A model generated the notes under the pieces. It had not been told where the DNA came from and made no database searches. It worked only from the letters and a program-made list of their open reading frames with translations. DNA of 64,000 nucleotides, taken from Mariprofundus ferrinatatus (GTDB lineage: Bacteria > Pseudomonadota > Zetaproteobacteria > Mariprofundales > Mariprofundaceae). Shown here in pieces: positions 4,032 through 7,799 of this stretch. The DNA is taken from assembly GCF_002795825.1 (NCBI RefSeq), contig NZ_CP018800.1, forward strand, positions 434,001 through 498,000. Direction: 5' to 3'. How positions within the stretch are numbered: position 1 is the first letter of the stretch; each line of letters opens with the position of its first letter. A program made the translations under genes and the position numbers.

Positions 4032-4064
4032 GAAGAGGCCCCGCTTTGCGAGGCCTCTTCTCTT
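4032..4064. terminator. Terminator between convergent genes
   Basis: GAAGAGGCC (4032-4040) pairs with GGCCTCTTC (4052-4060), loop of eleven bases, followed by TCTTA. It lies between the secreted-protein gene and the end of the EamA transporter gene. Confidence 0.7.
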
Positions 4065-4956
4065 AGTAGCGCAGGATACGGGCCCTGATCCGTCCAGTCA
4101 TGTCGCTAAATTCAAACAGAGCCAGACCAGAAAGAATCAACAGCGATCCTGCCACTACATTCAGTGTCAACGGTTCATTGTTGAACAGGTGCCCGATTGC
4201 CAGCGCACAGAGCGGTGTAACAAGTGTCAGCAGCGCAACTTTTGTCGCCTCAACCTTGCTCAATACATAATAGTAGAGCGCAAAACCAAGTACCGAACCG
4301 AGCAGAGCCAGATAACCAATGGCAGTTACCGTACGAGTGGATAATTCAGATGGAAATTCAGCACCGGTCAAAATCCACGTCATCAGGAAGAGCGGCGCTG
4401 CAAAAAGAAGCCCGCCGCTGGTCATCACGATAGCAGGCACATCGGCATCGATGCGCTTGATCCATACAGCACTGGCACAGTGAATGGATACTGAAACCAA
4501 CATGCCGACCACCCCGAGTGCTGCCTGATCATGCAGTGTGAAGCTGGTTCCGAAAATGATCGCCAGCCCGGTGATTCCCATCAGCATGCCCAAGACTTTT
4601 GAGCGTGTGATTTTCTCACCCTCAAGCCACCAGCCTGCCATCAAAGCGGTGAACAGTGGCGAGAGGCCGAAGATGACCGATATCCACCCGGTGGGGATAA
4701 ATTGCGCAGCCCAGTAAACACTTATCATGCCGCCAAAAATACCGATGGCTGCAGCAGAGTAGGCGATCAGGGCAGAGCGATGCCATTTCATGCCAGAGCC
4801 CAGAAGGGCGGCCACAATCAGAGCCAGAACGGCACCGATAAGCATTCGGCTTGTGAGACCAAATACAAAACCGACCTCTTCGCTGCTCCACAGAATGGCA
4901 AGCGGGGTGGTGCTCCAGATGATTATGACGCCTATATACGCCGATGGCACAGACAT
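4063..4956 (-). CDS. EamA/DMT-family transporter (RhaT/YdcZ-like)
   Basis: A 297-residue integral membrane protein with about ten hydrophobic helices in two halves, the EamA repeat layout of the drug/metabolite transporter superfamily. Motifs such as TPLAILWSSEEVGFVF in the first half and GSVLGFALYYYVLSKVEATKVALLTLVTPLCALAIG in the second are typical. The family exports or imports small metabolites; the substrate cannot be read from the sequence. I chose the ATG at 4956 because GGAGAG lies seven bases upstream and MSVPSAYIG begins the first helix; an upstream frame exists to 5040. Its upstream region holds a strong terminator and a structured segment on the same strand, which may attenuate this gene. 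Confidence 0.85.
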   Translation of the reverse strand: MSVPSAYIGVIIIWSTTPLAILWSSEEVGFVFGLTSRMLIGAVLALIVAALLGSGMKWHRSALIAYSAAAIGIFGGMISVYWAAQFIPTGWISVIFGLSPLFTALMAGWWLEGEKITRSKVLGMLMGITGLAIIFGTSFTLHDQAALGVVGMLVSVSIHCASAVWIKRIDADVPAIVMTSGGLLFAAPLFLMTWILTGAEFPSELSTRTVTAIGYLALLGSVLGFALYYYVLSKVEATKVALLTLVTPLCALAIGHLFNNEPLTLNVVAGSLLILSGLALFEFSDMTGRIRARILRY

Positions 4957-5024: not shown

Positions 5025-5065
5025 AAAAAAAAACGGCCACGGAGTTTTCAAAACCCGTGGCCGTT
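5025..5065 (-). terminator. Strong minus-strand terminator upstream of the EamA gene
   Basis: On the minus strand AACGGCCACGG and CCGTGGCCGTT form a perfect 11-pair stem with a 12-base loop, followed by nine T residues (5033-5025). It stands 69 bases upstream of the EamA start codon, on the same strand, with no protein gene before it. So it ends either a small RNA or a leader transcript. Confidence 0.85.
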
Positions 5066-5205
5066 GCAGTAGCAGTAACTTTGTCAGTTAATCAGAACAG
5101 TCCGGGTACAGAAAATCAGTTCGGCGGGCTACCACTAGCCAACCAAACGGTGCAGTTTTCTTTTCTGTGAAGTGCCTGTTCATAGCCGCGAAGATTGGTG
5201 CCATA
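5025..5205 (-). ncRNA. Candidate structured RNA or attenuator leader
   Basis: Read on the minus strand, this gap holds three nested stems: GAACAG (5181-5176) with CTGTTC (5100-5095), ACAGAAAA (5168-5161) with TTTTCTGT (5115-5108), and a 12-pair stem of 5148-5137 with 5130-5119 closing a six-base AGTGGT loop. The inner stem has two G-U pairs and one mismatch on the minus strand, but three mismatches if read on the plus strand, so the minus strand is the likely transcript. The terminator at 5065-5025 ends it. Weak -35-like boxes TTGACG (5219-5214) and TTGTCA (5230-5225) lie upstream. I could not match it to 6S, SRP or tmRNA, or to any riboswitch class I know. The start is approximate. Confidence 0.45.
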
Positions 5206-5248
5206 AATAATAACGTCAACACAATGACAAAACCGTGTGGCAAATTGT

Positions 5249-5281: not shown

Positions 5282-5300
5282 TAAAGTGGAGGCGTTTGCT

Positions 5301-7799
5301 GTGACTTACAGTCTGCTGACAGGCCAAGGCTACTCCGAAAACATCGAACCGGACGAAGATCATCCTGTTCTTGTTTTTGAGTCGGGTGCACATGCGGTTT
5401 ACTGGCTGGGTATCGTTGAAGATACAGCTTTCCGCTGCAATGCATATCTGATCCGAAACGGTGATGCGGCCATTCTGGTCGATCCGGGTGGAATCAACGC
5501 ATTCGATCAGGTCTGTACGCGTGTAAGCCACATTTTACCTCCGGGCAAAATCACCGGCATGATTCTCTGTCACCAGGACCCTGATGTGGCAGGCTCCATG
5601 GTGAGGTGGCTTGCCATCAATCCAGCAATGCAGGTTTATTCCACGCCACGAACACATGTGCTGCTTCCTCATTACGGGAAAAGTGACTATCTGGCATATG
5701 ATGTCGAAAAGAACCCTCGCTTCCGTCTTCCCGATGGCAGGGAGCTGCTATTTATTCCTGCTCCATTTCTTCACTTTCCGGGCGCTTTTGTTACCTATGA
5801 TACTGCTTCGGGGCTGCTTTTTTCAGGGGACATCTGGGCTGCACTTGATACTGACTGGCACCTTGTTGCGGAATCCTTCGATGCACATGTGCCCAAGCTG
5901 AATCTGTTCCACAAGGATTATATGGCATCCAACAGGGCCACCCGTGGTTTTGTAGCCAATATATCCCACCTGGAGATTAATGGCATACTGCCACAGCACG
6001 GCTCACTGATCTGCAGTCATCACGTCGATGCTGCACTTGAGTATCTGGAAACTCTTCAATGTGGCATTGACCTGACATACTCAACTGAGTCTTCCCATGA
6101 AGAGTCAGTGTCAGATGCTGTTGGGGATATTGAGACTGAATTCGAAGCAGAACCAGAAGCATCAAATGAGCAGTTCGGTGATGAAGCTGATTATGCTCAG
6201 GCGAGTATGCTTGAGACCCTGAACAAGAGGGTCAGGCTTTTGCAGGAGGCACTCAGTCAGTCGGAACGGCTTGCTGCCCTCAGGGAGCGAGCTGTGCGTG
6301 ATCTGAAGCTTGCAGAGCGGAAATTGCAGGAGAGTTCCTTGCGCCTTTCCGAGGCGCAGGCCATTGCACATATCGGCAACTGGGAATGGGATATCGTTCG
6401 TAACGAGCTTCGCTGGTCCGATGAGATTTATAGAATCTTCGGCCTTAAACCTCAGTCGTTTGATGCTACCTACGAGGCGTTTATAGGCTCAGTCCATCCT
6501 GATGATCGTCAGATGGTTCAGGATACGGTTCAGCTTGCACTGGATGAGATGGAGCCCTATAGCATAGATCACCGGATTGTCTGGCCAGACGGAACTGTGC
6601 GCATCGTGCATGAGCAGGGGCAGGTGCAATATGATGAGAGCAACAAGCCGCTTCGTATGATCGGGGTGGTGCAGGACATCAGTGAGCGCAAACAGGGCGA
6701 GGAGACGTTGCGTCGAAGCAATCTGCTGATTAAGTGTATTGAGCAGTTGCAATCGAGATTCATTTCGCATGGGGATGATCCGGTTACGCTTTACAGGGAT
6801 TTTCTCGGCGATTTACTGACATTGACCGATAGTGAATACGGTTTTTTTGGCGAAGTGTTGGCTGACCCGGGAGAGCGACCATATCTAAAGGTGTTTGCGC
6901 TGAGTAATCATGTTTGGGATGATGAGAGTCAGGCACTTTATGATGCTGTTCGTGAAAAGGGGTTTGAATTCCGCAACCTGAATACGCTAATTGGTCGTGT
7001 GATCTCAAGTGGTCAGCCGGTCATTACCGGTGATCCTGCAAGTGATCCTCGTCGTGGTGGCATGCCCAGGGGGCACCCTCCGATTCATACGTTTGCCGGC
7101 ATCCCTGTCTATTACGGAGATCGTCTTGTTGGTGAGGTCGGTTTGGCGAATCGTGAGGGTGGCTTTGATCAGCAACTGCTGGATTATATGGCGCCGGTTA
7201 TTATGGCGTGTGGGCAGATTATTATAGCACGACAGGAGCAAGTGGCCAGGCGGGCCGCAGAGAAGGCGCTGGAAAAACTGGCAAGCATGGATGGCCTGCT
7301 GCATATCCCCAACCGAAGAAGCTTCGATGAGTATTTGCATCATGAGTGGAGAAGGGCCATGCGCTATCAAACACCGGTTTCTCTTTTCATGATCGATATA
7401 GATCACTTTAAACGCTATAACGACAGCTATGGTCATCAGGCTGGTGACGACTGCCTGATTAAAGTCGCCAAACTGATTCAGGAAAGCCTGCGCCGACCGA
7501 CCGATATGGTTGCCCGATATGGTGGCGAAGAGTTTGTCTGTATTATGCCGGACACCTCCCTTGATGGAGCAGTTCCTGTCGCTAAGGCCATCATGCATGG
7601 CTTGCAGATGAAAAAAATGACTCACGAATCTTCACCTGTCGCTAGGCGTGTCACGGTGAGTATTGGCGTGGCCACAATAGTTCCTGGCAAGGATGTCGTG
7701 GCCTCAGACCTGGTTAAGCTGGCGGACAGATACCTCTATCAGGCCAAATCGTCTGGAAGAAACCGCATTGTCACCGAAAAAGATACCATTACATTGTAA
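5301..7799 (+). CDS. Diguanylate cyclase with metallo-beta-lactamase, PAS and GAF sensor domains
   Basis: An 832-residue fusion. Residues about 15-260 are a metallo-beta-lactamase fold close to flavodiiron and oxygen-binding di-iron proteins, with a full set of candidate iron ligands: His91, Asp93, Asp95, His158, Asp177, His233. A coiled coil (about 300-345) leads to a PAS domain (about 350-470), a GAF domain (about 480-650) and a GGDEF domain (about 665-830). The active site GGEEF (741-745) is intact and RPTD five residues before it is the product-inhibition I-site. It should make cyclic di-GMP in response to oxygen or another ligand bound by the di-iron site (inference). I chose the GTG at 5301 because AGTGGAGG lies eight bases upstream; the GTG at 5286 is inside that ribosome site. 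Confidence 0.9.
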   Translation: MTYSLLTGQGYSENIEPDEDHPVLVFESGAHAVYWLGIVEDTAFRCNAYLIRNGDAAILVDPGGINAFDQVCTRVSHILPPGKITGMILCHQDPDVAGSMVRWLAINPAMQVYSTPRTHVLLPHYGKSDYLAYDVEKNPRFRLPDGRELLFIPAPFLHFPGAFVTYDTASGLLFSGDIWAALDTDWHLVAESFDAHVPKLNLFHKDYMASNRATRGFVANISHLEINGILPQHGSLICSHHVDAALEYLETLQCGIDLTYSTESSHEESVSDAVGDIETEFEAEPEASNEQFGDEADYAQASMLETLNKRVRLLQEALSQSERLAALRERAVRDLKLAERKLQESSLRLSEAQAIAHIGNWEWDIVRNELRWSDEIYRIFGLKPQSFDATYEAFIGSVHPDDRQMVQDTVQLALDEMEPYSIDHRIVWPDGTVRIVHEQGQVQYDESNKPLRMIGVVQDISERKQGEETLRRSNLLIKCIEQLQSRFISHGDDPVTLYRDFLGDLLTLTDSEYGFFGEVLADPGERPYLKVFALSNHVWDDESQALYDAVREKGFEFRNLNTLIGRVISSGQPVITGDPASDPRRGGMPRGHPPIHTFAGIPVYYGDRLVGEVGLANREGGFDQQLLDYMAPVIMACGQIIIARQEQVARRAAEKALEKLASMDGLLHIPNRRSFDEYLHHEWRRAMRYQTPVSLFMIDIDHFKRYNDSYGHQAGDDCLIKVAKLIQESLRRPTDMVARYGGEEFVCIMPDTSLDGAVPVAKAIMHGLQMKKMTHESSPVARRVTVSIGVATIVPGKDVVASDLVKLADRYLYQAKSSGRNRIVTEKDTITL

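Follow-up and report, generated by a model that had tools for sequence, protein, structure and literature searches.

Leader-peptide attenuators are known mainly from biosynthetic operons. The leader ORF of Sinorhizobium meliloti trpL (rnTrpL) is leaderless, its ATG forming the 5′ end of the transcript (PMC7298713), and in Bacillus subtilis ribosome-mediated attenuation at bmrB takes place ahead of the multidrug transporter BmrCD (PMC4191407). In attenuation theory, a larger number of regulatory codons makes the response more sensitive (PMC1183508). Here, a leader upstream of an EamA/DMT-family transporter gene of Mariprofundus ferrinatatus is described that is probably a ribosome-mediated transcription attenuator controlled by the charging of Trp-tRNA, with a logic like that of the Escherichia coli trp leader (trpL).

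The M. ferrinatatus genome consists of 2.30 Mb in a single contig, and the stretch of it analyzed here (the window) spans 64,000 nucleotides. The EamA gene, whose closest relatives are found in Mariprofundus (Zetaproteobacteria), lies on the minus strand with its ATG at 4956, and the region of stems and terminator sits between it and a divergent gene on the plus strand that starts at about 5286; no gene was found between the terminator and this divergent gene. The similarity of EamA to named NCBIfam equivalogs is weak (YedA and YddG matches), and a sequence-based search for a solved homolog found none. The divergent neighbor (window 5286-7799, plus strand) encodes an ODP-type metallo-β-lactamase fused to PAS, GAF, and GGDEF domains, and is possibly an oxygen- or redox-sensing diguanylate cyclase. 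The transporter gene and the folded elements before it are the following:

4063..4956, minus strand: EamA/DMT-family transporter gene, 297 aa, with its own Shine-Dalgarno sequence and a PF00892 match (5.5e-31); the proposed controlled gene
5025..5065, minus strand: intrinsic terminator (3:4 hairpin), -22.6 kcal/mol, with its T run at 5033-5025
5050..5065, minus strand: region 3, the terminator 5′ arm (AACGGCCACGGGTTTT), common to the terminator and the putative antiterminator
5095..5181, minus strand: outer stem P1, enclosing P2 and P3; GAACAG (5181-5176) pairs with CTGTTC (5100-5095), and equivalents covary in relatives
5161..5168, minus strand: 5′ strand of stem P2, region 1 (ACAGAAAA), pairing with 5108-5115 (TTTTCTGT); the equivalent stem covaries in relatives
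5120..5147, minus strand: inner hairpin P3, 12 pairs (5147-5136 with 5131-5120), two of them G-U

The stems and terminator that a first-pass annotation had read on the minus strand, including the two G-U pairs of the inner stem, are all present. In the terminator hairpin (5065-5032), a bulge separates 11 perfect pairs from four further ones; nine T residues occupy 5033-5025, 68 nt before the EamA ATG. All three stems fall inside an upstream open reading frame (uORF), with the terminator and then EamA downstream. Neither the upper stems nor the strand follows from folding energy alone, since its z-score of -3.4 with the terminator becomes only -1.4 without it, and since the plus strand then folds as well as the minus strand, both to -37 kcal/mol; a strand call from folding energy was thus discarded as uninformative. 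The upper stems and the strand are established instead by sequence comparison with relatives, and transcription from the minus strand, as the annotation had claimed, is indicated by uORF, promoter, and terminator alike.

No Rfam family covers the region in the window, either at gathering score or at E ≤ 10, which agrees with the annotation, where it had been matched to no known class; matches above threshold were likewise absent from the related leaders, and curated aptamer models of any Rfam class matched neither the window nor these leaders. The rod-like fold suggested 6S RNA, of which this locus gives no match. Four separate 6S-RNA-like loci, each folding into a long rod interrupted by a central bubble, were seen elsewhere in the genome (G000:C1, all minus strand) at 94186-94363, 427337-427502, 428493-428657, and 1685114-1685288, scoring 59.2, 47.7, 40.5, and 40.9 bits (gathering 46.4). 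None of the four falls in the window, whose start is preceded at 5-7 kb by two of them in tandem; if all are real, they amount to an unusually high number for one 2.3-Mb genome.

The comparison drew on 18 zetaproteobacterial leaders (15 Mariprofundaceae loci from public genomes, two close relatives, and the window) and, after duplicate removal, on 69 leaders from other groups. In the former, TTGAC (17/18) and a weak -10 element are followed at a constant distance by an ATG that opens a frame of 29-34 codons, and this in turn by a variable linker, the terminator (AACGGCCAYGGGTT...RAAYCCRTGGCCGTT) with its T run, and EamA. Compensatory changes in related genomes had been proposed as a check on the stems, and across P1-P3 and the terminator the 18 leaders hold 12 double-sided pair changes where shuffles gave 7.2 (0/500 reach 12), with a covariation score (0.181, against 0.145 shuffled) that no shuffle reaches. 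For these helices 85% of alignment cells are paired, compared with 33-42% in slid versions. The terminator is the strongest helix (98.8% of cells paired), P3, whose 5′ strand holds the Trp codon discussed below, is paired in 86%, and P1, P2, and P3 each add double changes; P3 and the terminator also emerge independently from RNAalifold. In most zetaproteobacterial leaders, a short inverted repeat was noted by eye before the -35 element; its arms change together between species (CTGTG N9 CACAG, CTGCGT N7 ACGCAG, CTGAG N9 CTCAG), and it could be an operator or a hairpin. The elements that would express the leader and govern its folding are placed in the window as follows:

5214..5219, minus strand: -35 element TTGACG, its TTGAC kept in 17/18 zetaproteobacterial leaders
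5192..5197, minus strand: weak -10 element CAATCT, proposed from the consensus, with a 16-nt spacer and a G+C-rich discriminator
5088..5183, minus strand: uORF encoding the predicted leader peptide MNRHFTEKKTAPFGWLVVARRTDFLYPDCSD, 31 codons, predicted to be leaderless; frame open and conserved in 18 zetaproteobacterial genomes
5139..5141, minus strand: proposed control codon, Trp TGG, codon 15; Trp present in 18/18 zetaproteobacterial and 66/69 other leaders
5096..5115, minus strand: region 2, the putative antiterminator 5′ strand (TTTTCTGTACCCGGACTGTT), which forms the 3′ strand of P2 and P1 and alternatively pairs with region 3

The uORF ATG of the window lies 36 nt after the start of TTGAC. 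Among the 69 other leaders, in a test that counted ATGs at the right distance from the terminator, TTGAC occurred 35-37 nt before the uORF ATG in 57 (shuffle mean 0.5, maximum 3). By this -35 spacing, transcription is predicted to start at the ATG or no more than 1-2 nt away from it. An SD-like tetramer precedes only 3/69 uORFs, compared with 59/69 EamA genes, and the uORF is apparently leaderless, being translated from the 5′ end of the transcript without a Shine-Dalgarno sequence.

That the uORF is translated is predicted from substitutions by frame, stops, and the pattern of indels in the 18 zetaproteobacterial genomes. In the first 21 codons, the uORF frame has a pN/pS of 0.55 and the two alternative frames have values of 0.93 and 1.03, stops number 0 in the uORF frame versus 36 and 11 in the others, and the sole indel of the 5′ half is a 3-nt insertion, found in the window. 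The 3′ half shows differences of 1, 2, 12, and 13 columns, many of them not multiples of three; here CCTGTGYGCCGGAGT is kept as RNA while the reading frame shifts, so that this half has a second role, which the alignment identifies as that of antiterminator. A conserved small protein as the product was rejected, as N-terminal likeness extends only within the Mariprofundaceae and the C-terminus undergoes frame shifts between relatives.

The uORF ATG was picked by promoter position alone, using neither Trp nor complementarity. In the frames so chosen, 58 of the 69 non-zetaproteobacterial leaders have an in-frame Trp within codons 13-21 (dinucleotide shuffles: mean 12.2, maximum 21), and TGG occurs in frames 0, 1, and 2 of this stretch 58, 23, and 3 times; three leaders (L091, L189, and L194) have no Trp in the chosen frame. 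These uORFs are also enriched in Lys, Val, Ile, and Arg, none of which has a fixed position. When stalling was scanned with the leading edge of the ribosome set 11 nt past the A-site codon, the energy available to pairing between regions 2 and 3 (2:3) was -15.0 eight codons before Trp and still -14.0 at Trp, and fell to -12.5 one codon and -8.6 four codons after it. With the ribosome at Trp and the polymerase at the end of region 3, region 3 folded into upstream RNA in 79/81 leaders; with the ribosome at the stop codon it was sequestered in 22/81. Trp is thus the most downstream stall position that keeps region 2 free, and its modeled position is where a control codon should be. The part of the RNA that had been called aptamer-like is therefore the body of a predicted translated uORF with a conserved Trp codon, which makes the ribosome, not an aptamer, the most likely sensor.

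In the putative antiterminator of zetaproteobacterial leaders, CCTGTG(Y)GCCG (CCTGTGYGCCG), located toward the 3′ end of the uORF, pairs with CGGCCAYGGG in the 5′ arm of the terminator, the conserved partner on the terminator side being AACGGCCAYGGG. Cells of this 2:3 helix are paired in 87%, against 24-45% when slid; within the Zetaproteobacteria, conservation of both arms is too strong for the helix to covary. The best duplex with a leader's own terminator 5′ arm has -14.88 kcal/mol, against -13.08 kcal/mol with swapped arms (z = -7.9, 0/5000) and -11.5 in mononucleotide shuffles, and in non-zetaproteobacterial leaders the frequency with which the own arm ranks at the very top is only moderate. 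Region 2 of the window is weaker than in relatives and shifted with respect to theirs; the duplex with region 3 (-12.3 kcal/mol) is formed there by ACCCGG and CTGTT (5107-5096). The antiterminator proposed in the first-pass annotation, CCGTT with AACGG, is confined to the window genome, as relatives carry CCTTT, CCATT, GCATT, and others. At -22.6 versus -12.3 kcal/mol in the window, the antiterminator must win over the terminator by forming first. In other attenuators too, the terminator is more stable than the antiterminator.

By comparison of sequences, the leader thus combines a short ORF that is predicted to be translated, an intrinsic terminator between that ORF and the gene, an antiterminator that uses the terminator 5′ arm, and a control codon at which a stall would free region 2; terminator, 2:3 pairing, and Trp placement bear out the earlier suggestion of an attenuator. 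In the proposed mechanism, transcription would begin at or next to the ATG of the ~31-codon uORF, and translation would start from the 5′ end without a Shine-Dalgarno sequence. With Trp-tRNA plentiful, the ribosome would pass the Trp codon and run through region 2, and with region 2 covered, region 3 would pair with region 4, forming the terminator and ending transcription before EamA. The uORF stop codon lies downstream of region 2, so masking of region 2 by a terminating ribosome would be only partial. With Trp-tRNA scarce, the ribosome would stall with the Trp codon in its A site and its leading edge just short of region 2, which would be free to pair with region 3, block the terminator, and allow transcription of EamA. 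In the absence of translation, P1-P3 would fold and hold region 2, and the terminator would form. We infer the direction of this response, Trp-tRNA as its signal, and an EamA substrate or role tied to tryptophan. The weak point of the proposed mechanism is the strength of its sensor, a single Trp codon being few by attenuation theory (PMC1183508).

The arrangement is found in 18 Mariprofundaceae and, in outline, in the 69 other leaders, mostly from Gammaproteobacteria; the same layout precedes EamA orthologs in Gammaproteobacteria, one Desulfuromonadales, and one Pontiellaceae genome. The leaders have drifted apart in peptide and RNA sequence, and what remains constant is the ATG at the predicted start, the Trp codon, the 2:3 segment, and the terminator. 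A set of 369 gammaproteobacterial genomes yielded 68 EamA orthologs, 62 of which have a strong hairpin and T run within 220 nt upstream, and the distance from terminator to EamA start codon is mostly 17-60 nt. A covariance model built from zetaproteobacterial leaders only recovered 13/25 other loci at full length (E < 0.001), each match beginning at or next to the uORF. Across 78 zetaproteobacterial genomes its clear matches number one per genome, and those checked against EamA coordinates precede EamA, including one from outside the alignment (G054). Run over 339 gammaproteobacterial genomes, the model gave four matches, a small number because few candidates per genome were scored: two precede EamA (L234, L237), one is without EamA (L235), and one looks unrelated (L236). 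EamA is retained behind the leader while other flanking genes vary between genomes, in support of the earlier claim that the leader controls the transporter.

Two departures from the pattern were also seen. L235 (1501-1663, G571:C11) has a Trp uORF (MKTNITKKQDFMWHRTYLCVAKFRLCVCGF) and terminator with no adjacent EamA, and short direct repeats follow its terminator. EamA orthologs of Ghiorsea and Methylobacter (L045, L046, L048, L057, and others) have a missing or different leader terminator; lacking this terminator and leader, they must be regulated differently.

A related hypothesis is that the leader is a ribosome-mediated attenuator that senses a general slowing of translation by antibiotics or stress, as BmrB does, with EamA exporting a drug or metabolite. 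The bmrB leader has the same layout of terminator, antiterminator, and anti-antiterminator around a transporter's leader ORF (PMC4191407), EamA/DMT members are often exporters, the leader peptides are rich in Arg and Lys, and most leaders have a single Trp codon, adjacent Trp codons not being the pattern, which theory favoring several control codons makes a weak sensor (PMC1183508). This explanation is nonetheless unlikely, as it does not account for why Trp alone persists, in frame and at the edge of region 2, in a peptide that has otherwise diverged. It is very improbable that the basic, Trp-containing peptide arrests the ribosome on binding a small molecule such as free tryptophan, as in TnaC: Trp is essential there, and Arg-Arg stands a few residues before Trp in many leaders, but Trp is the only conserved residue, none keeps a fixed spacing to it, and the C-termini are frame-shifted among close relatives (L029, L040, L041, L042), something that an arrest sequence could not accommodate.

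A small RNA had also been raised by the first-pass annotation; in this reading the locus would encode an independent sRNA, or the mRNA of a small protein, that carries its own terminator, acts in trans, and is only a neighbor of EamA. Its terminated RNA of ~155 nt would be constitutive, the S. meliloti trp leader RNA and peptide do act in trans (PMC7298713), and L235 has no EamA behind it; however, EamA stays with the leader as other neighbors change, and the short gap between terminator and EamA in most genomes hardly fits another promoter, leaving this reading with very little likelihood. An aptamer-type riboswitch with an incidental uORF is scarcely credible, for although P1-P3 covary, no unpaired core is conserved across the classes, no Rfam family matches, and the coding signal, the in-frame conservation of Trp, and the fixing of the -35 element to the ATG would all be unexplained.

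The leader is absent from Rfam and from the open-access literature searched, the kind of attenuator itself being known: open-access full text on leader peptide attenuation with EamA, Mariprofundus, DMT, or Trp held no report of it, nor did Naville & Gautheret (2010) at keyword level. It stayed unannotated because its peptide and RNA sequences are hardly alike and its ORF has no Shine-Dalgarno sequence. On the sequences compared, an attenuator seems to have been fixed before an uncharacterized transporter across several phyla. We see an even chance that Trp-tRNA charging controls a widespread, undescribed attenuator family, whose uORF is leaderless and holds one control codon, in Zetaproteobacteria, Gammaproteobacteria, Desulfuromonadales, and Kiritimatiellota, marking this EamA/DMT subfamily as a transporter of tryptophan or a Trp-derived metabolite that is switched on by Trp-tRNA shortage. 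If right, this would give an orphan EamA subfamily a testable link to tryptophan, and offer a large set of natural examples from which to learn how attenuation can operate with one control codon and a leaderless, 70S-initiated ORF.

Among described RNAs, Rfam ar35 (RF02346) has a similar G+C-rich terminator hairpin, but its best score was 28 of 45 bits (L188), driven by the terminator and below gathering, its context differs, and EamA was not downstream of three true ar35 loci that were inspected. The bmrB leader of bmrCD resembles this one as ribosome-mediated attenuation before a transporter gene; it differs in being induced by ribosome-targeting antibiotics, in controlling an ABC transporter, in having its terminator inside the ORF, and in that no conserved control codon is described for it. 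S. meliloti trpL shares the leaderless leader ORF and Trp attenuator, whereas its 14-aa peptide has several consecutive Trp codons and it precedes trpE(G). RF00513, the Rfam Trp_leader family of E. coli trpL, gave no match in the window; in other leaders its only match stayed below threshold and was to the opposite strand. The likeness to E. coli trpL lies in the four alternating regions, the Trp codon in a leader ORF, and the competition of an antiterminator with an intrinsic terminator; trpL has two adjacent Trp codons in 14 codons and governs biosynthesis, whereas the leader described here has one Trp codon in ~31 codons, no Shine-Dalgarno sequence, and a stop codon after region 2, and would control a transporter.
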